From: Antedon mediterranea
Lineage: Eukaryota; Echinodermata; Crinoidea; Comatulida; Antedonidae
Direction of reading: 5' to 3'
Assembly: GCF_964355755.1 (NCBI RefSeq)
Contig: NC_092670.1
Coordinates: 38,179,795 to 38,243,794, forward strand
Length of the DNA: 64,000 bases
In this document: positions 15,147 through 62,215 of the stretch, piece after piece
Position numbering within the stretch: the stretch's first letter is position 1
How the letters are laid out: the number at the start of each line of letters is the position of its first letter
Program-made: the position numbers and the translations under genes
The notes under the pieces: model-generated
Database searches by the model: none
What the model was told of the DNA's origin: nothing
What the model saw: only the letters and a program-made list of their open reading frames with translations

Positions 15147-15179
15147 TGTTAATGTCGATCAATTCCTACGACCGTATCT

Positions 15180-22164: not shown

Positions 22165-22826
22165 CTTGTTGAATATTAATGAGTTGATGACCAACTTGTT
22201 GAATATTAATGAGTTGATGACCAACTTGTTGAATATTAATGAGTTGATGACCAACTTGTTGAATATTAATGAGTTGAAGACCAACTTGTTGAATATTAAT
22301 GAGTTGATGACCAACTTGTTGAATATTAATGAGTTGATGACCAACTTGTTGAATATTAATGAGTTAAGACCAACTTGTTGAATATTAATGAGTTGATGAC
22401 CAACTTGTTGAATATTCACAATATGATAACCGACTTGTTGAATATTAATGAGTTGATAACCAACTTGTTGAATATTCACAATATGATAACCGACTCGTTA
22501 AATATTAATGAGTTGATAACCAACTTGTTTAATATTAATGAGTTGATGACCAACTCGTTGAATATTAATGAGTTAAAGACCAACTTGTTGAATATTATTG
22601 AGTTGATGACCAACTTGTTGAATATTTTTGAGTTGATGACCAACTTGTTGAATATTATTGAGTTGACGGCCAACTTGTTGAATATTAATGAGTTAAAGAC
22701 CAACTTGTTGAATATTTATGAGTTGATGACCAACTTGTTGAATATTATTGAGTTGATGACCAACTTGTTGAATATTATTGAGTTGACGGCCAACTTGTTG
22801 AATACTAATGAGTTGATGACCAATTA
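22165..22826. repeat. 30-bp minisatellite, about 22 copies
   Basis: Unit beginning TTGTTGAATATTAATGAGTT and ending GATGACCAAC, period 30 bp with one single-base deletion near 22365 and one variant unit (ATTCACAATATGATAACCGA) that recurs twice. Because 30 is a multiple of three, both strands stay open: the plus strand reads LLNINELMTN repeated and the minus strand reads a repeat with SLIFNKLVIN. There is no start context, signal peptide or flanking exon to suggest a gene, so I treat it as noncoding. Confidence 0.9.
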
Positions 22827-28275: not shown

Positions 28276-31200
28276 TCACCGCCTCATCAGAATGACGTCA
28301 TTCGAAGATAACGAATTCTTTCCCAATACAACTTCACTCTTCTCGCTTCGCTTGATTCGAGATTCACTCGGATACGAAGAAGAATAGGATTTAGAATTTG
28401 GGTTATTATAAGACTTTGAGTAAAATGTTGATTGGGCTGTGGAGCCTGACTTAATTGATCGAAACATTTTGGTATGTTTTGGAACAGCACGTAACATTTT
28501 CCACCAGTGTGAACGCACCTCTGAACTTCTAGCGCAATACATAACGAAAATAAGGAAACCTTGGAAAGAGTTGAGAATACAAAATAACCATAGTACAAAC
28601 ACCGAAGCTTCTCCAATAGCGAAGAAACCAACGAGCCACGTCAGACCCAACACCATCACTATGCTTGCTCCATTCTGAAGCATTTTTATTCCTCTGCGTT
28701 TGGTTCCCTTCGGCCTAGCTTGATTACTGTTTTTTCCCATTTTGCTTAAACTGTGTAAAACCATCACAAATATGATCATGTTAAACAGTAAACAGAGTGC
28801 GACTGGTATAGCCACTCCATAGTACATACGCTGAAGTGTTAAGAAACAACTGAAAACAAACGGAGAATGATTAACAATATACTATTAATTATATACACTA
28901 GCAAACTTTACGTGAATAAATGGTAGCGATATTCCCAAATATGGTAGATATGAATTCATCATGTCCATATTATATGGGCACATCACGACATCACTCAGTG
29001 CGCCACTTCATAGCAATATTCAAGTAGATAATTTTCCCAAAATAAAACTTACTGAGCTTCGCCGTTGACGTAACCATCAATATCAATTAAAACACAGATT
29101 AAGACGATTGCAACAGGTAGACCTAATGAACGAAAGGTGTATAAATTAAAATTATGGTATCAGTCAGTAGTTAAGTATCTAAAAACAAGCCAATATAACA
29201 ACAGAACACTGAGCTTTCCTTGCCAAGATAGGAACTCGTAATAGTCTTTTGACAAAAACAAAGCTATACCACTGTTTGAAAGTTGGGTTGGAATCCAAAT
29301 GTCGTACTAACTATCTGCCTACACTATAAAACTAGTTCGACAAAAAAGTGTGATGTGCCCAAATATAGTATAGTGATATGCCCAAATATGGTAGTGATAT
29401 GACATCAAAATGTCAATATTTGGGCAAATCACACTTTTTTGTGAACAGAGCTTAACACTTACCCCATGCAAATAAGGAAGCTTTCACTAAAAATCGAGAC
29501 ACGTGAGTATCGAAAACTTTCACAAACAAGTAGTACATATTAACGGCCTGAACTGTCATCCAGAAAATGGAAGAGAGTAAGAAATAATGCACCAAGGCAC
29601 CAGCTGCGATGCACCCTCGTCTGTTACCAGTTTGGTCGATTCCAGCAAGAAAGACAACGTACAGAGAAAGCAGCGACACACAGAGGTGACATAAGATTTG
29701 TTTCGGTTCTGATCTTCGGAATTTTCTAAAAACAATAGTAAATATTCTACCAACAATATTTCTCAACATGCATCAAACTTATATTTGCGTTAAATGTTAG
29801 CAGCCTTAAAAAGACGATAATTCTAAAAGATAATTTCAATAATTCGCGCTTATAGAATTGCAATTTATGTATGCCTCGATTAGGATTAATAGAGTTGTAT
29901 AACCAATAGTGTTACAGTATATATATTGTTACCGTGACAAATAATAAAAAAAAATTATAAGCAATTTACCTTTTTGTTAAAAACGTGATGATTGTAAGGC
30001 AAAGGGACACTATGGATAGAATTAGACCAACTAGAGTTACAATATCGGCCGCTGGAGGCAGAACAATGTCAGTGTTATAGAAATCCTATGGAAAAAAAAG
30101 ATATATAACTAAAATACTACCGATTTCAAAAGACTTGTTATCATTGAAAACCATTCATTGTGATGTTTTTTATTCTTTAAATCTGTTTATTAAGGGGACA
30201 CTTTCTGGACCAAAAAAATCTACCATTCAAGATTCAAGATTCAAGATTCAAGAAATTTTATTTGTCCATAAAATGGAAATTCACTTTGCTTGGTAGATTA
30301 AAACAACAGAATAGCAACAATTTAAAAACGTGCAGTATGATAACAGATTAAAAATACAAGATAAAAAGTTAAAAATACTGTTAAAAATGTAAAACTATTA
30401 AAAATTGCATTAACGTCTTACATTAGAATTAAAAATATGAATGCTATTTACAACGAAGGATTTTCTAGTTCTACAAAGATTTGCTCTCGGAGGTCGTAGC
30501 CTAATGCCTGATCTATTTAAGTTATAACAGTAATGTAACGGATGAGTGGGGTCTTTCATAATATTGTTAACTTTTTTTAGAATACTCTTTTCATAGATAA
30601 ATGAACAAGGCGTTAGATCAGCTTTAATAATACGTTGTGCAATTTTTTGTCCAAAAAAGAGGAATTTAACCAGGGAAGAGTTAATTTAACTCTTCAAACT
30701 GGTTTAACTGTAGTTGCCTCACCATAAGTATAGCGAAGTTGGTAAGATGGGTACATTCACAATATTGCCTGTCACTACCGTCAGTGGATCCATTTACAAA
30801 AGTGCAGCCTTCTGATGACCAGCCGCCGGTTCCAAACAAGTTGAAATCCCAAAACACACAAGTTGTGTTTATGTTTGTTTCAGAAATCTGAGATTAAAAT
30901 CAGAAAATGATATTTACCTCCAGAATACTAATTTTCTGACATACAAACACATTTGCTGGTCATCATGTGCATTGGTCAAGAGTCAAGTACAAAAATGATT
31001 ATTAATTATTAGAAAAGTGTGTTTTGTTTAATTATTTCCCATATCAAAAACACTCAATTTATCTTTAAAAGTGGCAATGTTTGGTGTAATTAACTAAAAC
31101 TCTGTCTACACTATCAAACTTATTTGAAAAAAAAGTGTGATGTGCTCATATAATTGTAGTGTTATGCATAAATATGGTAGTTATATGACATCATCATGTC

Positions 31201-34200
31201 CATATATGGCACATCACATTTTTTGTCACATACAGTTTGATAGTGTAGACAGAGCTTAAGAAAGTACAAATTCAAAGCATGGATGAATATGGTATTTAGT
31301 ATTCAACATGCTTCACGTGCCAATATCTATCTAATTTCTATTTTTTGTAAAAAAACCTTTTCCTTTAAAAGTTGGTCTAACTGATATTTAAAAAGAATGA
31401 ATTTAAAATGGATACCTCAAGTGGAATAAAAGTAATCACAATCGGATCTTCCAATTCCACTCGTTCCAAATCCGGTATTGACAGAGAAATCACCTGACTG
31501 TTTGGTCGCCGACCAGAGCTTTCATTGATGAACTGACTTGACTGGAACAAGCGACTGTCATTATAAACAACAACTACAACTCGAAAATCTATCAGAAAAG
31601 GTTTTACATATTATCTTTAATCTTCTTTCTTCATAGTTTAATGATATATTAGAGTCTTCAGATGAAAATGGTAAATGTCGATGTTAAATCTTAATTTAAA
31701 AATTGCAGTTGATGATCTATTACCTGTCATGTTGTTTTCTTTGATGACGTCAGAAATGCTAGTTGGCAGGGCAATCGACACGTTTGCAGTTTCAGGTATC
31801 TGTGTATCATCAGTAATTACTTCGACGTTGCCAACACCATCCTGATTCGACTTGGAGATATAGCTCAAGTAAGTGGTGTTGACTTGACTGATTTGGTCAG
31901 CGTTGATCATCTGTGCCTGTACTGCGACGTTCGGTGTGATTTCCATGTATGTACCATCTTCATCAAGCTCAACCTGACTAAGTTGTTGTTCAAGAGCCTC
32001 GACAATCATAGTAGGAGCTTGATCCTCCACCTGACTTTCCATCAAAATGTCCTCATCAACTCCAAACAAATTATCCACTACAGTCACCATCGAGTCGGTT
32101 ACCTATTTAGAATTAATATCATCTTATTTGTTTGAATTCTTCTCATGATATACTATGAATAAATCAGCATTCATCATGAATATCGATAAAAATTAATAAA
32201 TTTGCATTAACTATAATTACTTAATGGTAGGATGGAATATTTTAAATACGGCGTGGTTTTCATCTGGAATTATGATTATGATGATATTTCATAATTAGTG
32301 TAATAAATGTATGGATTATTTTGTCGAATGTACAGCAATTACCTCTGTAGAGTTGGAACCTGTCTGTGAGATCTCTTCTAGAACTTCTGCAGTAGATTCT
32401 AAGGCATTGACTGTTATTTCTTCCGTATTACTTGTAATCTCCTCTACGTCATTGCTGACCTCTTCTACATTCTCCATTGTAACATTCATCTAACAAATTT
32501 TTGCAAGAATTTATTTAGACTGTCAAATCCAATCAAATTGTGTCAATACTTTAATAATTCCTTCACAGACAAAACTCAACTTATTTTTAAGGTAGAAGAT
32601 TAAGTATAAAGCCGATTCTCCACTAGGCGAATCAGCTTATATACGCATGCGTATTCATCTTTCCATCTTCTAAATCCCGGCCCTCTCTACTCATGCGTAT
32701 AAACTGAAGCTTTCGATTCGTGCTAAAAAATTCGCCTAGTGTAAAATCTGCTTAAAGATTGCTTTACAATGTATGGTTGTTAAAATACGATTTTTACCAT
32801 TACGATACGGTCCAATAATTGTTCTGCCGTTGCGTCTGGCCCACAGTCGGTCTGCGCTGGATCTTCCCACTCAGCCGGACTAAATCCATCACCTCCACAG
32901 GCTCGTGTTGCAATCGGTAGAAGATCTTATTTTAAAATAAAATTTAATTTCTATAAGCACGCATGACGATCAGGACAATCTTAGATACGTAAGAGACCAT
33001 GTACAATTACATCTACTGCAGTTACTGCAGTAACTATGCTTTGTTTACTCAACTTGTTACTGCAATTGCTTAGCAAGTTTGTTTTTTTAGATTGAAACAA
33101 ATTAAATCATACATTACTGCAGTAAAAATGTATAGTTACTGCAGTAACTATATTATAATAACTGTGACATGATCCTTAATCGAAATACACTCTATACTTC
33201 TTTTTTGTAATCTCCAAAGTACAATAAATTGGGTGGTGTAGTAAATATATTACAATAATTATGACATGATCCATAAACGAAATACAGTCTATACTTCTTT
33301 TTGTAATATCCAAAATAAAATAGATTAGATGGGTGTAGAAATGTATACGTTAAAGGTACTTACAATTTACTTTGCTTTCGTCACAAGTCTCTTCAGAATT
33401 GGCAATAGTATCAACTTGTGTCTCTGGAAACGCATACAAACCATCATACACGTCTTCGTAGCATGATTCTGTCGGAAAAACAGTGCATAAAGGATTACCG
33501 TAAAATCAATTTCAAACGTCTGACAAAGTAGGCCTAACATACAACTGGTAGAGACGTGTTGAAAGCTTGGGATCGAGAAGGAAGAAACTTTTTGAGGCAT
33601 GTTAATCTATATGCAAGTTAATTCAGTAAGCGGAAAAACACACGTAATTATTGTCTTTTTCTAACATTATTTTTATATTTTCGGTATTAATGCACTTAAT
33701 ACTGTACATATTGTTTCATAATAATTCATAATTTCATTTCAATTGTGAAAACCACATTTCTGTTTTTTACTTATATATAATGATATTATGAATATAATAT
33801 TGTTATTATATTGTTAACGTTCTCTACTGAACCACTTTGGAAATCAATGATTTAGCACTGAAAGTATCATTCAGTATAAAGACAGAATAAATAAATAAAT
33901 AATATTATGACAATGATATAATATATTCGAAATTATTAATTATTAAACGTATTAATTAATTGAATGTATAAAGTACCACATACCTGTACTGCTTAAGACG
34001 ATCATATCAGCTAGAAGGTATCCATCAGAATTATTGCCAATCCTTATTAGTTCTACGGTAAGAGCTTCAGAAAATTCACTATACGACGTGTTGGCGTTCA
34101 GTAACACATAGAAGTTAACCAACGATATGATACTACCTTCTGAAAAACTACGAACTTGCAAGAAAGTCTCACCACCATCCAACATCAGCTCTTTATTCAA

Positions 34201-37200
34201 CTGAACAAATACAAAAGAAATATATATAATTTGCTCAGCTTGGAAGAAATTATCTTTTCAGTTTTAGCCCAGCACTGGTGTGCATATATGTTTTTCACGA
34301 AACTGACTATCAAACTTTATGTGACAAAAAAATGTGATGTACTCTATCACTACCATATTTGGGCATATCACTACCATATTTGGGCATATCACTACCATAT
34401 TTGGGCATATCACTACCATATTTGGGCACATCACACCCTTTTTTTTTATCAAACTAGTTATATGTAGACATATCTTTATATACACAGTATGGAGAAATTA
34501 ATTTGATCCTGAATAGTATACAAAACATACAAAGACAAGACATACAAACGTAGTTATATTCGAGGATTCATCTTTAAAAGCAGTTGACGATGGATCGTTA
34601 AGGTTCTCAGTAAATGTTTTACTAAATGCCATAGATACAGGGATTACTGATATACCTGAAAAAGAAGTAAAAAAGAAATTTTCTAAAAGAAATCTCAGTT
34701 GAGAATTTAGAAAAATGTTGTGAAGCCATCACTGCATCGCACATAATTTCACATTGTATAATATTAGATGTATGAGATAATATATTTGTATAAAGAATTG
34801 TATTCAACATTTAAATAATAAGCCTACAGTCTTACCTTGAACAAGAAGTGGTACCCCATCTGAGGAAAATAAAGTTGCACTGTGTGGGCCTGCTCCATAG
34901 CCACTGCAGGTGTAATACCCTTGGTTGTCAATAGTAACCATCACTGTTATTGATTCTCTGTTGCTTGTCGAAACAAGAGATACGCCATCTTTGTACCATT
35001 GCCAGTTGTCTGAGTTGAATACTGCGCAGATCATTTCAACACTATCATACAGATTAGCTGTTACCGAATTTGGAAGAACTGTAAACACCGGAGGATCTGA
35101 AACATAAAATATGATAAATTGGTAAAGAGAGCAAACTACTTGTTTTTCAGCTTAATCTAATAAATCGCTTTCATATACTTGTGTCATTATATTTTCTCAG
35201 TAACTTTTCTCACCTGGTTCAATTTCGCAAAACTCTCCACTATAGAATAATTGGCAAATACATTGAAATACTCCATTGTCGGCCTGGCAGACACCATCAT
35301 TTAAACATACTATATCTGTACATGCATCTGTAATAAAAATCATATAGGTAAAGAAATCGGTGACTGTATGTGGCAGTCAATGAATTGAAGACTCTTTAAA
35401 AAGAGAAACGTAAGATAAGTTAAACAAAGAAGACCAGCACTCACACACATTGATGTACGAGATACTGGTATGCAGAGAGAATGAACTGGCTGTCACAATG
35501 ACAGATAAGAAGTTATGGAGGAATTTAGTCATAAAAGTTCGGTTATGTCCCGGAGTAAGTAAGTAAGTAAGATCGAATTAACAAAATAAAAATAAAAGCA
35601 GAACTTACCAATAACAGAAACCATAAAAGAACATGTTGCAGTATTCTCATATATATCAGTAGCAGTATATGTAACTGAATATGTGCCAACTTCCCATTCA
35701 TCGTCTGGTGATGCAGAAGCAGATAAGGTAACTTCTTCTCCAGAGTTATCGTCAGGTTCTGGAACTTCCCAAGTAACGCTTCTGTCAATGTCGCTAACAA
35801 CATTACTAGGGCATACAAGATTTGGGATTTCTTTATCTGAAAACAATTATTAATAGGCCTATATAAATATGAATTTTAACTGTTTACCAGGAAATAGATT
35901 ATATGAATCCGTTGTTTATGTTGTAATTTCTTCTTATCTGAATAAAAAAAATACTGTTGGTTTGTTTCGGAAAAAGGACATATTGACTTTTACCAGTACT
36001 GTATAGGTTTTGAGTGTTACGTTTTGTCAACCTTTCTCATTACATATGGCAGACATTGCACTAGGGATCATTCAAATGAATTCTAAATGTTTTATATTTC
36101 TTTAAAAAAAGATCTGCGTGTGCTCACCTTCGACATTTATATCAAAGGAACATTCTGCAACATTTCCCGATGAGTCTGTAGCAACATATTCGACAGTTGT
36201 ACGTCCAATAGGGAAGCTGTCACCCGGTGAATGAGATGACGATGTCGCCACTTCACCAGAGTTATCTTCAACTTGAACAACCCAGACGACAATGGCTTCT
36301 GGGCTCCTGGAATCGGTTTCAACAACAGGAAATAAAGGACACGTGATAGTGGGATCTTCAAAATCTATAATTAGAATATAAAAATGGATTCAATTGAATG
36401 ATAGATACCTCATATTAATAAAATCAATTTCACTTCATTTCAATAACATTTATTCAATAATGGTAAGACAAATAATACAAGAATAATAAACAATAAGAAA
36501 CAGTAAATACAAAACAAAAACAAGAAGAGGTAAATAAGAGAAAGGAATGCCATCATTGAGGTCATGATATAGATATTGAAATATTGAATTAAAGATTGGA
36601 ACTCGCATTAACACCACGAAGTTACTATTTTTATACCTACACATGAGGTATACCTATTCATGATTAATACTAATTAATCAAATAAATTAATCAAATATTC
36701 CATCTACTTACCTTTCACTGAGATCGTAAATGTGCATTCTTTTGTGTTACCAGCAACATCGAATGCCATAAAAGTGACCTCAGTTTCCCCAACGGGAAAC
36801 GAGGAACCAGCAGGAACACTAAAGGTTTCTGAGGCAATATCTACGTTGTCAGTTGCAGTTGCCGTGTAGTTTATTACAGCTGTTTTGGCGCCATCAGTTA
36901 AATTGGTGGTTATATCACTGGGGCAAGTTACCGTAGGAGCCTCGTTGTCTTAAATGAAACATATTAAAACCGCAATAATGTAATATTGTCATTATTTTCG
37001 TAATTACGTTATCGCATGAGTGTCAGTATATTAAATGAAAAGTTCAATAATGACTTTTTATAATGAAATTATCTTAGCGAGTCCAGTTTCTTAAATAAAA
37101 AGCAGGACAATAACACTGTAATATACATTACTGGAAATTTGATACAAGATATTTTTGTTTTGTATTATATCAATAAATTATGCATAGAATAAGTAACTTA

Positions 37201-40200: not shown

Positions 40201-43200
40201 TCTGTGGCTGGTTCTTCAGTGTTCAATAATTCAGTGAACTCGACTTCACTTTTGGTTGCCTCTGTGAATGGTTCTTCGGTTTTTGAAAATGTAAGCCTTT
40301 CCTCAATTTCTGTTATCCCTGTGAGCGATTCTTCAGTGCTTAAATCAGTGAATGTTCCACGAATTGTTGTTGCATCTATTGCCGATTCTTCAGTGTTAAA
40401 ATCAGTGAACGTTCCTTCAATTTCTGTTATACTTGTGGGCGATTCTACAGTGTTTAAACCAGTGAATTTTCCATCAATTGTTGTTACATATATTGGAAAT
40501 TCTTCAGTGTTTAAATCAGTGAACGTTCCTTCAGTTGTTGTTGCATCTATTGGCGATTCTTCAGTCTTTAAATCAGTGAACGTTCCTTCAATTGTTGTTC
40601 CATCTATTGGCGATTCATCAGTGATTATATCAGTGAACGTTTCTTCAATTGTTGTTGCATCTATTGGCGATTCTTCAGTCTTTAAATCAGTGAACGTTCC
40701 TTCAATTGTTGTTCCATCTATTGGCGATTCATCAGTGATTATATCAGTGAACGTTTCTTCAATTGTTGTTGCATCTATTGGCGATTCCTTAGTGTTTAAA
40801 TCAGTGAACGTTCCTTCAGTTGTTGTTGCATCTATTGGCAATTCTTCGGTCTTTAAATAAGTGAACGTTCCATCAATTGTTGTTGCATCTATTAGCGATT
40901 CTTCAGTGTTTAAATCAGTAAACGTTCTTTCAATTGTTGTTGCATCTATTGGCGATTCTTTAGTGTTTAAATCAGTGAAAGTTCCTTCAATTGTTGTTGC
41001 ATCTATTGGCAATTCTTCAGTGTTTAAATCAGTAAACGTTCCATCAATTGTTGTTGCATCTACTGGCGATTCTTCAGTGTTTAAATCAGTAAACGTTCCA
41101 TCAATTGTTGTTGCATCTATTGGCAATTCTTCAGTGTTTAAATCGGTGAACGTTCCTTCAGTTGTTGTTGCATCTATTGGCGATTCTTTAGTGTTTAAAT
41201 CAGTGAACGTTCCTTCAATTGTTGTTGCATCTATTGGCGATTCTTCAGTGTTTAAATTAGTGAACGTTCTTTCAGTTGTTGTTGCATCTATTGGCAATTC
41301 TTCAGTCTTTAAATAAGTGAACGTTCCATCAATTGTTGTTGCATCTATTAGCGATTCTTCAGTGTTTGAATCAGTGAACGTTCTTTCAATTGTTGTTGCA
41401 TCTATTGGCGATTCTTTAGTGTTTAAATCAGTGAACGTTCCTTCAATTGTTGTTGCATCTATTGGCGATTCTTCAGTGTTTAAATCAGTGAACGTTCTCT
41501 CAGTTGTTGTTGCATCTATTGGCAATTCTTCAGTGTTTAAATTGGTGAACGTTCCTTCAGTTGTTGTTGCATCTATTGGCGATTCTTTAGTGTTTAAATG
41601 AGTGAACGTTCCTTCAATTGTTGTTGCATCTATTGGCGATTCTTCAGTGTTTAAATCAGTGAACGTTCCTTCAGTTGTTGTTGCATCTATTGGCAATTCT
41701 TCAGTCTTTAAATAAGTGAACGTTCCATCAATTGTTGTTGCATCTATTAGCGATTCTTCAGTGTTTAAATCAGTGAACGTTCTTTCAATTGTTGTTGCAT
41801 CTATTGGCGATTCTTTAGTGTTTAAATCAGTGAACGTTCCTTCAATTGTTGTTGCATTTATTGGCGATTCTTCAGTGTTTAAATCAGTGAACGTTCGTTC
41901 AATTGTTGTTGCATCTATTGGCAATTCTTCAGTGTTTAAATCGGTGAACGTTCCTTCAGTTGTTGTTGCATCTATTGGCGATTCTTTAGTGTTTAAATCA
42001 GTGAACGTTCCTTCAATTATTGTTGCATCTATTGGCGATTCCTTAGTGTTTAAATCAGTGAACGTTCCTTCAATTGTTGTTGCATTTATTGGCGATTCTT
42101 CAGTGTTTAAATCAGTGAACGTTCGTTCAATTGTTGTTGCATCTGTGGTATCGACATCAGTTGTTGGATTTTGTGCAGTTGATTTTTCAGCTAATAATTC
42201 AGTTGTTGCTTTCGTAGTTGTCTCAACATCAGTTGTTGGATTTTGTGCAGTTGATTTTTCAGCTAATAATTCAGTTTTTGCCTTAGTTGTCTCGGCATCA
42301 GTGGTTGGATTTTGTGCAGTTGATTTTTCAGCTAATAATTCAGTTGTTGGCTCAGTTGTCTCAACATCAGTGGTTGGATTTTGTGCAGTTGATTTTTCAA
42401 CTAATAATTCAGTTGTTGTCTTAGTTGTCTCGACATCAGTGGTTGGATTTTGTGCAGTTGATTTTTCAGCTAATAATTCAGTTGTTGCTTTTGTGGTCTC
42501 GACATCAGTTGTTGGATTTTGTGCAGTTGATTTTTCAGCTAATAATTCAGTTGTTGCTTTAGTGGTCTCGACATCAGTTGTTGGATTTTGTGCAGTTGAT
42601 TTTTCAGCTAATAATTCAGTTGTTGCTTTAGTGGTCTCGATATCAGTGGTTGGATTTTGTGCAGTTGATTTTTCAGCTAATAATTCAGTTGTTGCCTTAG
42701 TTGTCTCGACATCAGTAGTTGGATTTTGTGCAGTTGATATTTCAACTAATAATTCAGTTGTTGCTTTAGTGGTCTCGACATCAGTTGTTGGATTTTGTGC
42801 AGTTGATTTTTCAGCTAATAATTCAGTTGTTGCTTTAGTGGTCTCGACATCTGTAGTTGGATTTTGTGCAGTTGATTTTTTAGCTAATAATTCAGTTGTT
42901 GCTTTAGTGGTTCCTACCTCAGTGGTGGGATATTGTGCAGTTGATATTTCAGCTAATAATTTAGTTGTTGCTTGTGTAGTCTCGACATCAGTTGTTGGAT
43001 TTTGTGCAGTTGATTTTTCAGCTAATAATTCAGTTGTTGCTTTAGTGGTCTCGACATCAGTTGTGGGATTTTGTGCAGTTGATTTTTCAGCTAATAATTC
43101 AGTTGTTGCTTTAGTGGTCTCGACATCAGTTGTTGGATTTTGTGCAGTTGATTTTTCAGCTAATAATTCAGTTGTTGCTTTAGTGGTCTCGACATCAGTG

Positions 43201-46200
43201 GTTGGATTTTGTGCAGTTGATTTTTCAGCTAATAATTCAGTTGTTGCCTTAGTTGTCTCGACATCAGTAGTTGGATTTTGTGCAGTTGATATTTCAACTA
43301 ATAATTCAGTTGTTGCTTTAGTGGTCTCGACATCAGTGGTTGGATTTTGTGCAGTTGATTTTTCAGCTAATAATTCAGTTGTTGCTTTAGTGGTCTCGAC
43401 ATCTGTAGTTGGATTTTGTGCAGTTGATTTTTTAGCTAATAATTCAGTTGTTGCTTTAGTGGTCCCTACCTCAGTGGTGGGATTTTGTGCAGTTGATATT
43501 TCAGTTAATAATTCAGTTGTTGCTTTAGTGGTCTCGACATCAGTTGTTGGATTTTGTGCAGTTGATTTTTCAGCTAATATTTCAGTTGTTGCTTTAGTGG
43601 TCTCGACATCTGTAGTTGGATTTTGTGCAGTTGATTTTGTAGCTAATAATTCAGTTGTTGCTTTAGTGGTCCCTACCTCAGTGGTTGGATTTTGTGTAGT
43701 TGATTTTTCAGTTAATAATTCAGTTGTTGCGTTCGTAGTATCGACATCAGTAGGTGGATTTTGTGCAGTTGATTTTTCAGCTAATAATTCAGTTGTTGCT
43801 TTAGTGGTCTCGACATCAGTGGTTGGATTTTGTGCAGTTGATATTTCAGCTAATAATTTAGTTGTTGCTTGTGTAGTCTCGACATCAGTTGTTGGATTTT
43901 GTGCAGTTGATTTTTCAGCTAATAATTCAGTTGTTGCTTTAGTGGTCTCGACATCAGTTGTGGGATTTTGTGCTGTTGATTTTTCAGCTAATAATTCAGT
44001 TGTTGCTTTAATTGTCTCGACATCAGTGGTTGGATTTTGTGCAGTTGATTTTTCAGCTAATAATTCAGTTGTTGCTTTAGTGGTCTCGACATCAGTTGTT
44101 GGATTTTGTGCAGTTGATTTTTCAGGTAATAATTCAGTTGTGACTTTAGTGGTCTCGACATCTGTAGTTGAATTTTGTGCAGTTGATTTTTCAGCTAATA
44201 ATTCGGTTGTTGCTTTAGTGGTCTCGACATCAGTGGTTGGATTTTGTGCAGTTGATTTTTCAGCTAATAATTCAGTTGTTGCTTTAGTGGTCTCGACATC
44301 AGTGGTTGGATTTTGTGCTGTTGATTTTTCAGCTAATAATTCAGTTGTTGCTTTAGTGGTCTCGACATCAGTAGTTGGATTTTGTGCAGTTGATTTTTCA
44401 GCTAATAATTTGGTAGTTGCTTTAGTGGTCTCGACATCAGTGGTTGGATTTTGTGAGGTTGATTTTTCAGCTAATAATTCAGTTGTTGCTTTAGTGGTTT
44501 CGACATCAGTGGTTGGATTTTGTGCAGTTGATTTTTCAGGTAATAATTCAGTTGTTGCCTTAGTTTTCTCGGCATCAGTGGTTGGATTTTGTGCTGTTGA
44601 TTTTTCAGTTAATAATTCAGTTGTTGCTTTAGTTGTCTCGTCATCAGTAGTTGGATTTTGTGCAGTTGATTTTTCAGCTAATAATTCAGTTGTTGCTTTA
44701 GTGGTCTCGACATCAGTGGTTGGATGTTGTGCAGTTGATTTTTCAGCTAATAATTCGGTTGTTGCCTTAGTTGTCTCGACATCAGTGGTAGGATTTTGTG
44801 CTGTTGATTTTTCAGTTAATAATACAGTTGTTGCTTTAGTTGTCTCGACATGATTCGTTGGATGTTGTGCAGTTGATTTTTCAGCTAATAATTCAGTTGT
44901 TGCTTTAGTGGTCTCGACATCAGTGGTTGGATTTTGTGCTGTTGATTTTTCAGTTAATAATTCAGTTGTTGCTTTAGTTGTCTCGTCATCAGTAGTTGGA
45001 TTTTGTGCAGTTGATTTTTCAGCTAATAATTCGGTTGTTGCTTTAGTGGTCTCGACATCAGTGGTTGGATGTTGTGCAGTTGATTTTTCAGCTAATAATT
45101 CGGTTGTTGCCTTAGTTGTCTCGACATCAGTGGTTGGATGTTGTGCAGTTGATTTTTCCGCTAATAATTCGGTTGTTGCTTTAGTGGTCTCGACATCAGT
45201 GGTTGGATTTTGTGCAGTTGATTTTTCTGGTAATAATTCGGTTGTTGCTTTAGTGGTCTCGACATCAGTGGTTGGATTTTGTGCAGTTGATTTTTCAGCT
45301 AATAATTCAGTTGTTGGCTCAGTGATCTCGACATCAGTGGTTGGATTTTGTGCAGATGATTTTTCAGCTAATAATTCAGTTGTTGCTTTAGTGGTCTCGA
45401 CATCAGTGGTTGGATTTTGTGCAGTTGATTTTTCAGGTAATAATTCAGTTGTTGCCTTAGTTTTCTCGGCATCAGTGGTTGGATTTTGTGCTGTTGATTT
45501 TTCAGTTAATAATTCAGTTGTTGCTTTAGTTGTCTCGGCATCAGTATTTGGATTTTGTGCTGTTGATTTTTCAGTTAATAATTCAGTTGTTGCTTTAGTG
45601 GTCTCGACATTAGTGGTTGGATGTTGTGCAGTTGATTTTTCAGCTAATAATTCGGTTGTTGCTTTAGTTGTCTCGACATCAGTGGTTGGATTTTGTGCAG
45701 TTGATTTTTCAGCTAATAATTTGGTTGTTGCTTTAGTGGTCTCGACATCAGTGGTTGGATTTTGTGCTGTTGATTTTTCAGCTAATAATTCAGTTGTTGC
45801 TTTAGTGGTCTCGACATCAGTGGTTGGATTTTGTGCAGTTGATTTTTCAGCTAATAATTCAGTTGTTGGCTCAGTGATCTCGACATCAGTGGTTGGATTT
45901 TGTGCAGATGATTTTTCAGCTAATAATTCAGTTGTTTCTTTAGTGGTCTCGACATCAGTGGTTGGATTTTGTGCAGTTGATTTTTTAGGTAATAATTCAG
46001 TTGTTGCCTTAGTTTTCTCGGCATCAGTGGTTGGATTTTGTGCTGTTGATTTTTCAGTTAATAATTCAGTTGTTGCTTTAGTTGTCTCGGCATCAGTATT
46101 TGGATTTTGTGCTGTTGATTTTTCAGTTAATAATTCAGTTGTTGCTTTAGTGGTCTCGACATTAGTGGTTGGATGTTGTGCAGTTGATTTTTCAGCTAAT

Positions 46201-49200
46201 AATTCGGTTGTTGCTTTAGTTGTCTCGACATCAGTGGTTGGATTTTGTGCAGTTGATTTTTCAGCTAATAATTCAGTTGTTGCTTTAGTGGTCTCGACAT
46301 CAGTGGTTGGATGTTGTGCAGTTGATTTTTCAGCTAATAATTCAGTTGTTGCTTTAGTTGTCTCGACATCAGTAGTTGGATTTTGTGCAGTTGATTTTTC
46401 AGCTAATAATTCGGTAGTTGCTTTAGTGGTCTCGACATCAGTGGTTGGATTTTGTGAGGTTGATTTTTCAGCTAATAATTCAGTTGTTGCTTTAGTGGTT
46501 TCGACATCAGTGGTTGGATTTTGTGCAGTTGATTTTTCAGGTAATAATTCAGCTGTTGCCTTAGTTTTCTCGGCATCAGTGGTTGGATTTTGTGCTGTTG
46601 ATTTTTCAGTTAATAATTCAGTTGTTGCTTTAGTTGTCTCGTCATCAGTAGTTGGATTTTGTGCAGTTGATTTTTCAGCTAATAATTCAGTTGTTGCTTT
46701 AGTGGTCTCGACATCAGTGGTTGGATGTTGTGCAGTTGATTTTTCAGCTAATAATTCAGTTGTTGCTTTAGTGGTCTCGACATCAGTGGTTGGATGTTGT
46801 GCAGTTGATTTTTCCGCTAATAATTCGGTTGTTTCTTTAGTGGTCTCGACATCAGTGGTTGGATTTTGTGCAGTTGATTTTTCAGCTAATAATTCGGTTG
46901 TTGCTTTAGTGGTCTCGACATCAGTGGTTGGATTTTGTGCAGTTGATTTTTCAGCTAATAATTCAGTTGTTGCTTTAGTGGTCTCGACATCAGTGGTTGG
47001 ATTTTGTGCAGTTGATTTTTCAGCTAATAATTCAGTTGTTGGCTCAGTGATCTCGACATCAGTGGTTGGATTTTGTGCAGATGATTTTTCAGGTAATAAT
47101 TCAGTTGTTGCCTTAGTTTTCTCGGCATCAGTGGTTGGATTTTGTGCTGTTGATTTTTCAGTTAATAATTCAGTTGTTGCTTTAGTGGTCTCGACATCAG
47201 TGGTTGGATGTTGTGCAGTTGATTTTTCAGCTAATAATTCGGTTGTTGCTTTAGTTGTCTCGACATCAGTGGTTGGATTTTGTGCAGTTAATTTTTCAGC
47301 TAATAATTCAGTTGTTGCTTTAGTGGTCTCGACATCAGTGGTGAGATGTTGTGCAGTTGATTTTTCAGCTAATAATTCCGTTGTTTCCTTAGTTGTCTCG
47401 ACATCAGTGGTTGGATTTTGTGCAGTTGATTTTTCAGCTAATAATTCGGTTGTTGCTTTAGTGGTCTCGACATCAGTGGTAGGATTTTGTGCAGTTGATT
47501 TTTCAGTTAATAATTCAGTTGTTGCTTTAGCGATCTCATCAGTACGATTTTGTGTTGTTGGATCTCGTGTAGTTTCAATTGTTGCATTAGTGGTTTCTGT
47601 TTTAGTAGTATGTTCTTTTGTAGAGAATATTTCAGTTGAAATAGTCGTCTCTTCTTCTTGGTTATTTCCTGTAATTTGAATATGAGTTGTGGTATAAATT
47701 CTTACATTTGAATACCGTAGGTAAAAAAACAAAATAGGTAAGAAATAATCACGAATACTAACAAATAATACTATTACGGACACACAACATTCAGAAATGA
47801 ATAATTGTTATGATACTGCAATAGCCTACCTCCTTTAGTTACTGATAGGAACAGAGAGTATGGCATGAAATTCCCCGGTAGGAAATATGTTAAAATGTTT
47901 TCTCCGGTGTGTTTGTCAGCACGAAAAATGTTATCGTCATTTAATTGAGTCCAATATAGGTTCTGTTTATAGATCTGCAAACTGACAACTGGTACATCAG
48001 TGATGACGTCAACTCTGCTACGATCCGAGAGTTCCAAATATGATATCATCCGAGCGACTGTGTCTCCCCAGTAAATTCGATCAGCTATCAAAAACAAAAA
48101 ATTATAAAATTATCTTTACCCCAAAAAAATGTGGACCATTCTTTTCTTTCGCACTAACACTTACATAGTCAAATTGGCTGAGGCTCTCTATTATTTTACG
48201 TACGCATGCGAATACAACGATTGTATTAACGGTTCGTTATTTTTGCCGATTCTTAGTACTGTAATGACGGTACAAAATCATAGGCAAATTTTATAATACA
48301 GTGTTACATAGTATCACATGTGATTCTGTATCATGGCAATAAGATGAACCTAACCAATTCTACAGACGAAACGTGCTTATATATGGACATAATATTTTCT
48401 TACTGTATGTGCACATATACTTAGTGGAGTACAGAAAATGATCATTTCTGTATACTTTATAAAAGACGCCACGCGAATGTAATAATATATTACTAATAAA
48501 GAGCTGTATTGATTTCTGACTTTCACGTGTCAGATGGACATTTAGGTACCCAAACAAGTACACTTTATTAAACCAAATTTTTCGCTTTAATTATTCTATT
48601 CATACTACAAAATGAAATGGTGCAAACCACAAAGAGTTTTACAAGTGTTTACGTCCGAGCAACAATGAAATCCAAGGCCAATTCTCGTGAATTCATTCTG
48701 GCCCACTTTGTCACGCTTCTGTCGAATTTTGTTTTGATATATAGAATAATAGATTAGAAATTAAAGTCCGGGTATTACTTACGTTTAGGTGCTATGAATA
48801 CTGATATCGGTTGTATTAATCCATTTCCTAGCAAGGTTATCACGTTACTACCATTAAAGGCGGCCTGTTGAATAGACGGGGCAGTTCCTCCTGTCGACCA
48901 AACTATTAGACTATAAAACACATAATATATAGTGAAAGTACACTCTTCCCTGATCAAATTTATTTTCATCAATTGGCCCCCCGCTTCTGAATGAATATCA
49001 GTTTCTGAAGATTTATTTGTGGATTTCGTAGACTCAAAGTAGGACGGAACCCATTAAAGTGTCCCCTAGAAAAGATTAGTTAGAAAAATTATTATAAATC
49101 ATCCATACTTGTCTTATGTTAAGCTCTGTTTACAAACTAGTTTGACAAAAAAGTGTAATGTGCCCAAATATGGTTATGACATCAACGTCAGTTTGATAGT

Positions 49201-50721
49201 GTGGCTTCAAACGTACTTTTCATCTGAGTTTACTGCAATGGACAACGGTTGGATTACACCTTCAATAAGAACCTCTCGATTTTCACCGTTTAAATCAGCT
49301 TTCTCGATTGTTTGGGAAGCAGAATCAGTCCAGAATAATGTATTAGTACGCACATCAACAGAAAGTGACATATCTATGGAATGGAAATGGAATTAAACAA
49401 AATGCGAAATTGAATTAATGGATAATGATTAAATTGTACGTATGGGATGAGAAGAAATGTGGAATAGGAAAGTGTGGAATAGGATGAAAGTGTGAAATTG
49501 GATGAAAGTGTGTACTGGAATGAAAGTGTGAAATTGGATGAAAATGTGGAATGGGATGAAAGTGTAGAATGTGATGAAAATGTGGAACCTGATGAAAGTG
49601 GGAATGGGATGAAAATGTGGAACCTGATGAAAGTGTGGAATGGGATGAAAGTGTGGAATGGGATGAAAGTGTGGAATAGGAAGAAAGTGTGGAATGATGT
49701 GAAAGTGTGAAATGGGATGGAAACGTGGAATGGGAAGAAAAGGTGGAAGCGGATGAATAGTTGAATATGATGTTTAAAGTTAATGATGAAAATGTGAAAT
49801 TAGAAGATGAAAATGTGGAATAAGATAAAAGTTTGGAACAAAATAATATTGTGAAAGCAGATGAATTTCATATCATATAAAAGTTAATACGGGTACGCGT
49901 TATACATTGTAGAACAAATCAAATTATCAGTTTAATTTAACAGTTTTTTTGTTGTTAAACCTAGTTTATAAGATTTAGACATAACTTGCATAGTTGCATC
50001 TTTGTAATTATTACACAAATCCCACACATTCCAACCTAGCTTTCTGTATTGTGCAATTTTACAAAAGAGAGTACAATACATACATTCAATATTTAAAAAA
50101 CTAAATTAAATTTAAAACTAAATGAATGAAATAATTGCCTTACTTCTTGAAACTCCTGCCATGGATTCTTCTTCTTCAGAAATCACGACCTCGGAGGTCT
50201 CGTCTGCTAAGAAGTAGCGCCATATACTATTAGTAGATTCTTCTACCCAATATACTGCACACATTCGACGATGAAAGTCCACGGATTTTGGGGAGAAATG
50301 TTCTGCCATAGTGGGTAGTGGTTCAAAATTAACCTCGAATTCAACATTTTCATAATCGAACAATGAGAAGTATATTCCTGGTGTTGTTACACTACTAACA
50401 ATCACAAATTCACTCGTTACATCTATTGAATAAAGTTTTAACTGTTATTAAAATAACATTTCAATATTAATAGTTGAAGATTATGGGACAGTCAACATTA
50501 TTCAATTAAGATGATCCGTATCTAAAAGCATAATGATTTAAAAATCGATTGACTGATATAGGGCCTAAGCCTAGTATAATATCCACCCTCGGTGCCCTCA
50601 TGTGCCTCCATTCATTTATATATATATTTTTTTAATTAAAAAACTCACTTATAGCAGTCGAAAATTTAAGCAATCCCACAAGAAAACAGAGCCAAAGCTG
50701 GATCGTCGTTATAAACATCAT
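28276..50721 (-). CDS. Giant mucin-like adhesion GPCR (propeller/mucin/HYR/SEA/GAIN-GPS/7TM)
   Basis: I reconstructed 24 coding exons: 50649-50721, 50144-50422, 49217-49373, 48783-48910, 47830-48084, 37862-47668, 37526-37762, 36712-36948, 36128-36364, 35609-35836, 35214-35327, 34836-35096, 34546-34655, 33984-34200, 33364-33468, 32798-32925, 32343-32489, 31724-32102, 31416-31588, 30723-30887, 29970-30085, 29463-29725, 29053-29122, 28276-28849. Every junction has a GT donor and AG acceptor and the phases match throughout; the sum is 14,460 nt, 4,819 residues plus stop. Domains: signal peptide 1-23; YWTD propeller about 25-297; Thr-rich mucin about 298-3566; HYR x4 3567-3879; EGF 3880-3917; Ig 3918-4004; SEA 4005-4113; hormone-receptor-like 4114-4191; GAIN/GPS 4192-4479; 7TM about 4483-4740; Ser-rich tail. 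By family knowledge it is a self-cleaved surface receptor activated by a tethered peptide. Its ligand is unknown. Splice joins are inferred from the genomic sequence. Confidence 0.9.
28896..28990. mobile_element. MITE family B, copy 5 (adhesion GPCR intron, partial)
   Basis: A core fragment only (TGGTAGCGATATTCCCAAAT, TCATCATGTCCATAT, GGGCACATCAC). Confidence 0.55.
29309..29455. mobile_element. MITE family B, copy 6 (adhesion GPCR intron)
   Basis: Left TIR ACTATCTGCCTACACTAT, right end GAACAGAGCTTAA, with two internal CCCAAATATGGTAGTGATATG-type units. It ends about 8 bp from the exon at 29463-29725. Confidence 0.8.
30222..30690 (-). pseudogene. 5'-truncated CR1/L2-like LINE in an adhesion GPCR intron
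   Basis: On the minus strand, 30660 to about 30414 reads as a LINE ORF2 C terminus: HPLHYCYNLNRSGIRLRPPR, then RTRKSFVVNSIHIFN and a stop. This matches the SGRRLR-PR...R-RKSF-P-SI-IFN end of CR1/L2-type proteins. After a short 3'UTR the element ends in a (TTGAATC)n tail at about 30223-30254, as expected for a LINE 3' end. It lies between the GPS exon and the TM1 exon in the same orientation as the gene. Confidence 0.75.
31096..31260. mobile_element. MITE family B, copy 7 (adhesion GPCR intron)
   Basis: Complete, from AACTCTGTCTACACTATCAA to GATAGTGTAGACAGAGCTTAA. Confidence 0.85.
32609..32753. mobile_element. MITE with GATTCTCCACTAGGCGAATC end
   Basis: The left end AAGCCGATTCTCCACTAGGC and right end GCCTAGTGTAAAATCTGCTT are imperfect inverted copies. 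The inner arms CGCATGCGTATTCA and CATGCGTATAAACTGAAGC also pair. It is a separate family from A and B, in the intron between the hormone-receptor-like and GAIN exons. Confidence 0.65.
33000..33345. repeat. Short direct duplications in an adhesion GPCR intron
   Basis: A segment of about 90 bp containing TGACATGATCC.TAA.CGAAA and CTATACTTCTTTTT occurs twice in tandem (about 33165-33250 and 33255-33340). Just upstream, TTACTGCAGTAACTA or a close variant occurs several times. Confidence 0.65.
33984..35327 (-). other. EGF, Ig-like and SEA modules of the adhesion GPCR
   Basis: The EGF exon (35214-35327) has six cysteines in EGF spacing (CTDIVC, VCQADN, CICQLFYSGEFC). The Ig exon (34836-35096) has ICAV, WQWYKDG and the YYTCSG motif. 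The SEA domain is split over 34546-34655 and 33984-34200. It contains VRSFSEGSII, where G4063-S4064 matches the G/S-V/I-V/I autoproteolysis motif of cleavable SEA domains such as MUC1. SEA next to an Ig domain recalls the ADGRF (GPR116) subfamily. Confidence 0.85.
34301..34475. mobile_element. MITE family B, copy 8 with expanded internal 21-bp repeat
   Basis: The core unit CATATCACTACCATATTTGGG occurs about four to five times in tandem, giving open frames on both strands. The outer ends are partly worn (GACTATCAAACTTTATGTGAC at left). It lies in the intron that splits the SEA domain. Confidence 0.8.
35609..37762 (-). other. Four HYR modules, one per exon
   Basis: Exons 37526-37762, 36712-36948, 36128-36364 and 35609-35836. 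Each encodes one hyalin repeat (76-79 residues): D-x-x-x-P-x-x-x-C-P at the start, V-x-Y/F-T-A-x-D-x-x-x-N in the second half, and C-S/T-F near the end. All are bounded by phase 1 introns, and three are exactly 237 nt. HYR modules have an Ig-like fold and mediate adhesion in hyalin and complement-related proteins. Confidence 0.9.
37890..38560 (-). repeat. Mucin block D: short STTEA-type repeat tract
   Basis: About 220 residues of ASTTEA, APTTEA, VSTTEI and similar 5-residue units (15 bp in DNA), almost purely Thr, Ser, Ala, Glu and Pro. It joins the VNTR blocks to the first HYR module. Confidence 0.85.
38590..40320 (-). repeat. Mucin block C: 60-bp (20-residue) VNTR, about 29 copies
   Basis: The unit contains NTEEPFTEATEIEGEFTEL, with F/V/A after P, E/K before GEF and I/L at the end. 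It is more acidic than block A. The DNA period is exactly 60 bp across almost the whole block. Confidence 0.92.
40345..42145 (-). repeat. Mucin block B: 57-bp (19-residue) VNTR, about 31 copies
   Basis: Unit DATTIEGTFTDLNTEESPI with common changes G to R after IE, S to L before P, and TTIE to TTTE. Degenerate units at the C-terminal edge grade towards block C: the sequence there has TFTDFNTEE, then EFTELLNTEEP. Confidence 0.9.
42145..47540 (-). repeat. Mucin block A: 69-bp (23-residue) VNTR, about 78 copies
   Basis: The unit contains ELLAEKSTAQNPTTDVE followed by TTKATT. Variation is concentrated at a few positions: A/T/P before EK, N/H after Q, and V/A/D/I in TTDVE. Runs of several units recur together, showing duplication of multi-unit blocks. 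Copy number is estimated from length divided by 69. Confidence 0.9.
49121..49206. mobile_element. MITE family B, copy 9 (partial)
   Basis: Left TIR TTAAGCTCTGTTTACAAACT; the core is shortened and the right side ends at CAGTTTGATAGTGTGG, about 10 bp from the propeller exon at 49217. Confidence 0.7.
49440..49810. repeat. 18-bp minisatellite in an adhesion GPCR intron
   Basis: Unit GTGGAATGGGATGAAAGT and variants (AAATTGGATGAAAGTGTG), about 18-20 copies. Being a multiple of three it keeps one plus-strand frame open (49492-49710), but it lies within an intron between two propeller exons and is not coding. Confidence 0.8.

Positions 50722-54501: not shown

Positions 54502-62215
<7,714 letters not shown>

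Follow-up and report, generated by a model that had tools for sequence, protein, structure and literature searches.

A predicted Antedon mediterranea adhesion GPCR in which an LRP-type propeller and a giant repeat stalk precede a GAIN-7TM receptor

Does the minus strand of this Antedon mediterranea locus encode one giant receptor, or do its propeller, stalk and receptor exons belong to different genes? In the window (the whole stretch of DNA analysed, 64,000 nucleotides) the model comprises 24 exons running from an ATG at 50721 to 28279, followed by a TGA stop at 28278-28276. The joined exons encode 4,819 residues with no internal stops, and all 23 junctions are GT-AG and in phase. The coordinates, exon and junction counts and length proposed by the first-pass annotation were reproduced exactly, and its stalk of about 3,270 residues was computed at 3,268. 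From the N- to the C-terminus the predicted protein displays a signal peptide, a six-bladed YWTD (LRP-type) propeller, a Thr-rich tandem-repeat stalk, four HYR domains, an EGF, an Ig, a SEA and a HormR-like domain, a GAIN/GPS region and a 7TM bundle (Table 1), in support of the domain order read earlier. We hold with high confidence that this adhesion GPCR, as modelled, is the product of a single gene, and we infer equally firmly that propeller, stalk and receptor are joined in it. The Pfam scan covered residues 1-345, a stalk segment of 230 residues and the C-terminal 1,487 residues; an Rfam search of the window returned no matches at gathering scores.

Table 1 Exons of the predicted receptor and repeat blocks of its stalk (window positions).
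Feature	Position	Strand	Phase	Basis or remark
Exon 1, start codon and signal peptide	50649..50721	-	ends in phase 1	hydrophobicity 2.72
Exon 2 (P1), propeller first blades	50144..50422	-	1-1	same phases in locus B
Exon 3 (P2), propeller	49217..49373	-	1-2	Ldl_recept_b E 2.9e-10, residues 128-164
Exon 4 (P3), propeller	48783..48910	-	2-1	LRP-type homology, codon usage, locus B phases
Exon 5 (P4), propeller last blades	47830..48084	-	1-1	LRP-type homology, codon usage, locus B phases
Exon 6, Thr-rich repeat stalk, 3,268 residues	37862..47668	-	1-1	skippable in frame
Stalk block, 23-aa repeats	42144..47525	-		78 unit starts
Stalk block, 19-aa repeats	40251..42143	-		30 unit starts
Stalk block, 20-aa acidic repeats	38589..40250	-		28 unit starts
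Last 242 stalk residues, TTEAx-type	37862..38588	-		S+T 50%; only in-frame ATG, 38507
Exon 7, HYR 1	37526..37762	-	1-1	Pfam, P0001
Exon 8, HYR 2	36712..36948	-	1-1	Pfam, P0001
Exon 9, HYR 3	36128..36364	-	1-1	Pfam, P0001
Exon 10, HYR 4	35609..35836	-	1-1	Pfam, P0001
Exon 11, EGF-like	35214..35327	-	1-1	read by eye; Pfam EGF in P0002
Exon 12, Ig-like	34836..35096	-	1-1	Pfam; Ig fold in P0010 model
Exon 13, SEA first half	34546..34655	-		fold model of P0010
Exon 14, SEA second half	33984..34200	-		GSIIS at residue 4063, candidate self-cleavage site
Exon 15, HormR-like first half	33364..33468	-		GPR128_N below cut-off, fold
Exon 16, HormR-like second half	32798..32925	-		GPR128_N below cut-off, fold
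Exon 17, GAIN subdomain A	32343..32489	-
Exon 18, GAIN	31724..32102	-
Exon 19, GAIN subdomain B	31416..31588	-
Exon 20, GPS with HL|T and start of tethered agonist	30723..30887	-		H = residue 4471
Exon 21, TM1	29970..30085	-
Exon 22, TM2-TM3	29463..29725	-
Exon 23, TM4	29053..29122	-
Exon 24, TM5-TM7, cytoplasmic tail and stop	28276..28849	-

The C-terminal part of the model coincides with a public record, as its last 1,468 residues are those of the NCBI protein P0001 (Antedon mediterranea, 1,468 aa), in which 18 of the 23 junctions recur. Pfam recognizes the four HYR domains (E 4.6e-54), the GPS (E 8.9e-12) and, over profile positions 5-250 of 250, a 7tm_2 domain (E 4.7e-38), so that a secretin/adhesion-type 7TM is present. 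The Ig-like domain matches Ig_3 with E 5.4e-6 at 27.3 bits, under the 30-bit cut-off. The GPS motif and the tethered agonist are contained in the segment HLTNFAILM at residue 4471. A GAIN profile constructed from four family members matches ADGRG6 (E 4.8e-25), while GAIN_subdom_B reaches 17.1 bits in the 4,819-aa protein (cut-off 21.7) and GAIN_subdomA 22.6 bits (cut-off 22) in the relative P0005. The HormR-like part matches GPR128_N at 20.9 bits, below the cut-off of 27.2, and also matches HormR and GAIN folds; in P0014 the same profile scores 35.6 bits. SEA obtains no Pfam score in the 4,819-aa protein. At the matching place in relatives it scores 26.2 bits against a cut-off of 26.4 in P0006 and, weakly, 18.7 bits in P0010, the fold model of which supports the predicted SEA assignment.

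The five upstream junctions (SP-P1, P1-P2, P2-P3, P3-P4 and P4-stalk), for which no public protein record was found, are predicted from LRP-type propeller homology, codon usage, splice phase and one signal-peptide exon. Exon 1 is the sole signal-peptide-like phase-1 first exon (two ATGs) in 52500-47669, against five candidates of this kind on the minus strand over the window as a whole, and its codon-usage score of 0.06 is equivocal. Exons P1-P4 score 0.29 to 0.58 in the model frame, above every other frame of these exons, including certain antisense frames of P1-P3 that are also positive (up to 0.36), and the five adjoining introns are negative in all frames (-0.36 to -0.86). Six YWTD-like motifs, chosen by eye from eight pattern matches, are located at residues 41, 81, 130, 172, 216 and 255. 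Pfam scores one of the repeats, as Ldl_recept_b (40.9 bits, cut-off 21), and reports Ldl_recept_b, SGL, DUF5050 and CGLA_M in residues 1-345 at E<=0.1. The similarity to the propellers of LRP2/4/6 and LDLR continues across the P1-P4 joins. No crinoid protein with a propeller was found among the best 120 of 956 matches listed (from the 7,992 candidates with the greatest word overlap). A separate annotated propeller gene was sought and rejected, weakly because candidates were limited by length and word sharing, with no right-size protein at E<=0.001 among 1,152 candidates. A second propeller protein search, limited in the same way, gave 30 matches, none from a crinoid: names or Pfam domains mark 29 as LRP-type, and the other is a bacterial peptidase.

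A second locus 31 Mb from the window locus (locus B, G000:C1:7249066-7298483) displays on one strand a signal-peptide-like exon (7249066), a four-exon propeller, HYR, EGF, Ig, SEA, HormR, GAIN and 7TM, with no other receptor end between propeller and 7TM. Its propeller phases, 1-1, 1-2, 2-1 and 1-1, are those of the window. Locus B thus lends independent support to the predicted link between propeller and receptor. Its signal-peptide-like exon has a hydrophobicity of 3.64, the best of ten rows in the scan (next 2.44), and its P3 acceptor scores 3.9, second to a phase-0 acceptor at 4.2. The propeller there sits within the HYR array and not at the tip, and P4 is separated from the next HYR exon by 532 bp, so no such stalk exon is present. 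The window propeller reaches 85.9 bits against that of locus B and 84-90 bits against LRP propellers, and the locus B propeller is closer to LRP1 (149 bits). Since the two are no closer in sequence to each other than to LRPs, their putative kinship rests on the shared exon phases, a pattern that LRP genes may also have. Among 18 close-base loci, window included, seven have a propeller exon upstream on the same strand and none on the opposite strand, the corresponding counts for 111 7tm_2 loci, the window not among them, being 7/111 and 0/111. Same-strand propeller exons also occur downstream (4/18 and 2/111), and clusters therefore blur the strand and position controls. Loci A, C and D also carry propeller exons upstream of GAIN-7TM; as judged from their translations, reverse-transcriptase-like ORFs lie nearby or between, and for this reason they are not taken as proven single genes.

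The stalk exon spans 9,807 bp and contains 136 unit starts across three arrays, with an S+T content of 33%. The first-pass annotation had termed it a mucin stalk. A strict PTS-domain test demands S+T>=40% and P>=5% per 100 aa, and 94 of 3,169 windows (starts 3295-3467) pass it, the final TTEAx part passing and the bulk of the stalk failing. A lenient test formulated for whole proteins, S+T>25% and at least 4 repeats in the available text of PMC2515642, is passed when applied to the stalk. The mucin label thus stands in the lenient sense and mostly falls in the strict one. In the 23-aa block, 22 of the distinct changes are synonymous (13.8 +/- 2.4 expected) and no stops occur where 3.7 would be expected, and by these counts the block is evolving as coding sequence. 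No synonymous excess is seen in the 20-aa block (23 against 17.5 +/- 3.5) or the 19-aa block (13 against 21.1 +/- 3.7). Codon usage leaves the strand undecided, with 0.55 for sense and 0.57 for one antisense frame, and in antisense frame 1 the 23-aa block splits into 23 synonymous, 36 nonsynonymous and 2 stop changes, similarly to the coding frame. With ORFs of 1006, 151, 1045 and 941 aa, the plus strand is almost free of stops, because short stop-free repeats mirror. An antisense reading was rejected: 5 stops interrupt even the best plus frame, whereas the minus coding frame contains none, and P0001 is read from the minus strand.

The stalk exon may be real and yet optional, with HYR 1 spliced directly to P4 (or to the signal-peptide exon) in the main product and a long form that is rare or tissue-specific, a reading that we regard as a serious although minority possibility. 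Skipping keeps the frame because exon 6 and every HYR, EGF and Ig exon are of phase 1-1 and P1-P4 taken together have phase 1 at both ends, and locus B dispenses with such an exon. In contrast, the coding constraint on the 23-aa block makes it probable that translation includes the stalk on at least some occasions. A repeat exon whose skipping preserves the frame would offer a natural test of stalk-length function.

For the predicted receptor with its full stalk, self-cleavage would occur at HL|T in the GPS, the fragments staying associated. The presumably O-glycosylated acidic stalk, at 2.5 angstrom for each of its 3,268 residues, would hold the propeller up to ~0.8 micrometre away from the membrane, where it may bind a matrix, mucus or cell-surface ligand, and a pull or shear along the stalk would free the tethered agonist TNFAILM and switch on the 7TM. 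The SEA domain with its GSIIS motif could act as a second breakable joint, shedding the stalk and capping the force, and skipping of the stalk exon would generate a short-stalked form. GPS-type activation is likely, judging from the predicted protein, and long-range force or distance sensing is put forward tentatively. The propeller might instead capture ligands for endocytosis or scavenging, as LRP propellers do, the stalk being a protective glycocalyx and activation proceeding without force; its similarity to LRP1/2/4/6 and LDLR and the barrier role of membrane mucins fit such a function. We consider it the less likely reading, as the HL|T site and tethered-agonist sequence are kept and joined to a full 7TM, and the LDLa modules typical of LRPs were absent at E<=0.1 from the three scanned pieces, most of the repeat stalk lying outside them.

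P0001 has neither signal peptide nor propeller and only a minor part of the stalk, starts at the only ATG of the stalk frame (38507) and has an N-terminal hydrophobicity of 0.61 against 2.72 for the model. The first-pass annotation had named transcripts starting inside the mucin exon as evidence against its gene, and P0001 does start there; it looks like a truncated prediction because it begins at the sole in-frame ATG and has no hydrophobic N-terminus. With that single ATG, a secreted N-terminus needs an upstream exon spliced in phase 1, and the model exons SP, P1, P3 and P4 end in this phase, P4 adjoining the stalk. A two-gene reading, with one gene (50721 to about 47774) for a propeller protein that is secreted or short and another for a receptor that starts in or near the stalk exon, would accord with the P0001 start and with retention of the P4 intron, which reaches a stop ending at 47774, but is improbable, since P0001 would then be an adhesion GPCR devoid of a signal peptide, the acceptor at 47668 needs a phase-1 partner that P4, 161 bp off, supplies, none of four poly(A) hexamers sought in 47860-47600 is present, and locus B places its propeller between a strong signal-peptide-like exon and the 7TM with no intervening receptor end. 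The single gene remains the preferred reading. None of seven family records has a hydrophobic N-terminus, which suggests that automatic annotation can drop the N-termini of giant repeat-bearing receptors, and receptor diversity may therefore be under-counted.

The SEA-HormR-GAIN-7TM base is common to P0006 and P0010 of Antedon and to P0002, P0003, P0005 and P0014 of Anneissia japonica, P0005 breaking off before the GPS and P0014 being without a visible SEA. All six family records possessing a GPS, P0001 included, have HL|T. The N-termini of these relatives (P0003 being outside the scan) vary, with CUB, EGF arrays or long HYR arrays, and none has a long stalk. P0002, in which Pfam detects EGF, shows 20 HYR stretches and no stalk or propeller, its model being probably truncated. 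As far as these predicted proteins and exons reveal, this is a crinoid receptor group with a common base and differing N-terminal modules on mostly phase 1-1 exons, the propeller cassette included. A broader proposal, to which we give even chances, is that feather stars evolved an adhesion GPCR family with this one base and swappable phase 1-1 modules and recruited an LRP-type YWTD cassette. Here the propeller would tip a stalk exceeding in length the entire extracellular region of ADGRG4, the ADGRG4 plan being reached independently, with SEA and GPS as breakable joints in series and an optional stalk exon tuning reach.

Should transcripts bear out this gene, it would rank, so far as literature searches show, as the first adhesion GPCR to carry an LRP-type propeller and apparently as an independent case of the ADGRG4 plan. 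A tip domain, giant stalk and GAIN receptor in two lineages would then argue that stalk length is itself functional. According to the available text of PMC10687090, ADGRG4 (GPR112) carries a tip domain, a very long Ser/Thr-rich (mucin-like) stalk, SEA, HRM, GAIN and 7TM, the same order as here, and shear sensing through its stalk was proposed in 2023. Its tip is pentraxin-like, whereas here the tip is YWTD, with no pentraxin among the Pfam matches of residues 1-345 at E<=0.1. Four HYR domains, EGF and Ig lie between stalk and SEA in the present receptor, modules that the same text does not mention for ADGRG4, and the ADGRG4 SEA is described as lacking the G-S-[V/I]-V-V site, whereas GSIIS is found here. 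The likeness is probably convergent, because the scanned crinoid relatives, the models of which look truncated, show no stalk.

In a GAIN-7TM sequence search ADGRG2 scored best (202.6 bits), followed by ADGRL3 (181.4) and ADGRG6 (174.3), an ADGRG4 7TM construct reaching 134.4 bits. Among Foldseek matches of the P0010 model, the extracellular region of ADGRG6 (GPR126) ranks first (E 1.0e-14), with TM-scores of only 0.19-0.24, and Pfam models of ADGRG7 (GPR128) match the present receptor below cut-off. HYR, YWTD propellers and stalks of comparable size are not known from ADGRG6, ADGRG2 or ADGRG7. Latrophilins (ADGRL; olfactomedin) and ADGRV1 (EPTP) are adhesion GPCRs with a propeller-type domain far out extracellularly. 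Pfam reported neither olfactomedin nor EPTP in the first 345 residues of the present receptor, the propeller of which is of the YWTD type. LDL-receptor family members (LRP1/2/4/6) likewise have a six-bladed YWTD propeller, anchored by a single helix and not by a 7TM, and the transmembrane mucins MUC1 and MUC16 also have one helix, whereas this receptor has a 7TM with GAIN and a stalk of 33% S+T.

Lineage-specific swapping of N-terminal modules is shared with amphioxus, the adhesion GPCRs of which have added LDLa, CUB, Ig I-set and other domains (available text of PMC2246102). The LDL class A domains described in those receptors, and in rhodopsin-type GPCRs of Ciona (available text of PMC2396169), are cysteine modules, whereas the YWTD propeller is class B. 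In the text searched, YWTD and hyalin do not occur in PMC2246102, nor YWTD in PMC2396169, and in PMC12716839 YWTD, HYR, LDL receptor and propeller are absent, LDLa occurring once, for rhodopsin-type GPCRs. Of the novelty first claimed, the YWTD propeller in an adhesion GPCR holds, as literature searches found no paper describing one, while the union of a mucin-like stalk with a self-activating receptor already exists in ADGRG4 (available text of PMC10687090). The parts and the overall plan are known from other proteins; their combination looks new.

Rebuilding the gene on the minus strand, by a consensus splice-site score and the phase rule followed by joining of the exons, gave a model of 24 exons with 23 in-phase GT-AG junctions and no stops, encoding 4,819 residues (14,457 nucleotides without the stop codon) and identical in exons, junctions and length to the chain described in the first-pass annotation. 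A protein search with the model devoid of its stalk found P0001, an uncharacterized protein of the crinoid Antedon mediterranea, whose sequence matches the C-terminal 1,468 residues of the model letter for letter. Thus, 18 of the 23 junctions are shared with the NCBI prediction. The original observation, an in-phase exon chain from propeller through stalk to receptor, is confirmed, and a single gene is probable.

The main doubt is carried by the join between propeller and stalk. P0001 begins at model residue 3,352, the sole ATG in the 3,320-codon stalk frame, and its start is not hydrophobic (0.61 against 2.72 for exon 1, the signal-peptide exon); it therefore looks like a truncated record rather than a genuine start, and the five upstream junctions rest on other support. 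A hydrophobic start is absent from all seven public records of the family, with the six besides P0001 (P0006 and P0010 of Antedon; P0002, P0003, which is marked partial, P0005 and P0014 of Anneissia japonica) scoring 0.39 to 1.36, and N-termini look to have been dropped throughout these records. P0003 also displays a reverse-transcriptase-looking stretch (by eye) between HYR domains and is probably a chimeric prediction. Similarity to the propellers of LRP2, LRP4, LRP6 and LDLR crosses the joins of the four propeller exons, P1 to P4. Their codon usage, scored after training on NCBI-supported exons, is 0.36, 0.58, 0.36 and 0.29 in the model frame, above those exons' other frames, with antisense frames reaching up to 0.36 (in P2); the five adjoining introns are negative in every frame and the signal-peptide exon is equivocal (0.06). 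The acceptor of the stalk exon is in phase 1 and the neighbouring P4 ends in phase 1. Exon 1 is the sole signal-peptide-like phase-1 first exon within 52500-47669 (its two ATGs counted once), against five such rows on the window's minus strand as a whole, and none of the four poly(A) hexamers tried occurs in 47860-47600.

Independent genomic support for the propeller-receptor link comes from locus B, 31 Mb from the window, which itself lies at C1:38179795-38243794. Searching the whole assembly with the window propeller gave 128 matches at E<=10, mostly weak, comprising the window's four exons and lower-scoring copies of these exon types at numerous sites. Locus B contains P1-, P2- and P4-like exons and a P3 exon found with LRP1, followed on one strand by HYR exons, EGF, Ig, SEA, HormR, GAIN, GPS and 7TM. 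Its propeller exons can splice 1-1, 1-2, 2-1 and 1-1, the phases of the window, through the second-best P3 acceptor (3.9 vs 4.2), and the joined propeller (266 residues, no stops) is 25% identical to that of the window over 253 aligned positions. In this alignment, read by eye, the P2-P3 and P3-P4 splice points occupy matching columns and P1-P2 falls in a gapped stretch. The window propeller, scoring 85.9 bits against locus B and 84-90 bits against LRP propellers, is no closer to the former, so the tie between the loci rests on exon phases as compared between these two; the locus B propeller scores 149 bits with LRP1, above its score with the window. The preceding 7TM ends near 7245857. The strongest signal-peptide-like phase-1 exon of the stretch scanned lies at 7249066 (hydrophobicity 3.64; next best 2.44 among ten rows, one inside the preceding 7TM and several overlapping HYR exons), and no further receptor end appeared from there up to the 7TM at 7298423. 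In contrast to the window gene, whose propeller is at the tip, locus B carries it within the HYR array.

Among the 18 loci whose GPS exon scores highest against the window's (at least 72.5 bits; the window is one of them), 7 have a propeller exon on the same strand up to 80 kb upstream, uninterrupted by another locus of the set, and 0 have one on the opposite strand; the downstream counts are 4 and 1. In a set of 111 7tm_2 loci, built from 150 listed of 160 matches without the window's own, 7 have one on the same strand up to 45 kb upstream and 0 on the opposite one (downstream, 2 and 0). Apart from the window's own, the propeller matches used for these counts have E-values of 0.0004 to 6.6. 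A tandem cluster at C1:6.53-7.30 Mb, with P1-like propeller exons interspersed among the 7tm_2 and GPS exons of such receptors, may be a propeller-receptor cluster. A possible second group is formed by C9 loci L029-L031 and L037-L044 (15.92, 14.90 and 16.76 Mb), where propeller exons precede same-strand 7TM exons by 12-30 kb, HYR, EGF and SEA were not detected, and reverse-transcriptase-like ORFs are nearby.

Features of the window, of the stalk and of locus B (bare positions are window positions)
Feature	Position (strand)	Details
Receptor gene	50721-28276 (-)	ATG 50721; TGA 28278-28276
Stalk exon (exon 6)	37862-47668 (-)
Stalk block 1		23-aa repeats; 78 unit starts; S+T 35%
Stalk block 2		19-aa repeats; 30 unit starts; S+T 32%
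Stalk block 3		20-aa repeats; 28 unit starts; S+T 21%
Stalk end		TTEAx; 242 residues; S+T 50%
TRIM-like gene	9174-11408 (+)	ORFs with B-box and filamin repeat
Rhodopsin-class GPCR ORFs	13434-15158, 17162-18556 (-)	Single exons; 7tm_1 E 6.6e-55, 2.8e-53
33/99-bp tandem array	16433-17023	Between the two GPCR ORFs
30-bp unit, 22 copies	22164-22823	One plus frame open for 154 aa; no Pfam match
Arf-family GTPase exons	24478-25416 (-)	Downstream of receptor gene; Pfam for 24928-25026, remainder by eye
HECT ubiquitin-ligase exons	about 55193-58166 (-)	Upstream of receptor gene; Pfam for 56384-56785, remainder by eye
Short arrays, 21-bp unit like ATGCCCAAATATGGTA	34345-34434, 54727-54776, 55073-55122, 59736-59785, 60667-60734 (either strand)	In an intron of receptor gene and outside it
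Locus B (L045, L032-L036)	C1:7249066-7298483	Signal-peptide-like exon, HYR array, YWTD propeller, further HYR, EGF, Ig, SEA, HormR, GAIN, 7TM; boundaries sketched
Locus B EGF-type exons	C1:7279280, 7280863	Almost identical; before EGF

The 3,268-residue stalk contains neither Cys nor Trp and is 28% T, 16% E, 5% S and 5% P, with a net charge of -479 and six N-glycosylation sequons. A strict test for mucin-like sequence requires 40% S+T and 5% P, and at these thresholds 94 of 3,169 stalk windows pass. The stalk does qualify under a lenient test, S+T above 25% with repeats, applied to whole proteins in the available part of PMC2515642 and here to the stalk; the mucin stalk of the first-pass annotation thus holds in the lenient sense but in few windows under the strict one. 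The 23-aa block is under coding constraint: of 61 distinct changes, 22 are synonymous (13.8 +/- 2.4 expected) and 0 create a stop (3.7 expected), distinct changes in tandem arrays being not fully independent. The 20- and 19-aa blocks show no synonymous excess.

Adhesion GPCRs are cleaved at the GPS, and a tethered agonist switches the receptor on. The parts, their order, the cleavage motif and the exon phases are directly visible here. The propeller would bind an external partner, the stalk would set the reach (about 0.8 micrometre extended, at 2.5 angstrom per residue from the available part of PMC10687090) and tension would free the tethered agonist; SEA may shed first, thereby capping the force. 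Force or distance sensing by the receptor is proposed tentatively, as somewhat short of an even chance. Exon 6, being phase 1-1, can be left out in frame, which makes a short form possible.

Among the papers listed by searches of the open-access literature (PMC), no adhesion GPCR with YWTD, LDL-receptor-type or hyalin domains was found; a 2026 review was consulted in part (PMC13197933). LDLa and CUB are among the extra domains of adhesion GPCRs in amphioxus (PMC2246102, in part), but LDLa is distinct from the YWTD propeller of the crinoid gene. Among solved structures the GAIN-7TM sequence is nearest to ADGRG2, ADGRL3 and ADGRG6, and a revised vertebrate classification places ADGRG2/4/6 together and ADGRG7 separately (PMC8584163, in part). 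ADGRG4 is described, in the available part of PMC10687090, with a pentraxin-like tip, mucin domains at residues 279-2244, predicted SEA, HRM, GAIN and 7TM, and is proposed there as a shear sensor. Of the earlier interpretation, which is partly supported, the parts, their order and the adhesion-GPCR type stand, whereas the plan of tip, mucin stalk and receptor already exists in ADGRG4. The predicted gene follows the ADGRG4 plan, its tip being a YWTD propeller and HYR, EGF and Ig being additional. Because scanned crinoid relatives, whose models look truncated, display other N-termini (CUB, EGF, HYR) and the tip differs from that of ADGRG4, we read the likeness as convergent.
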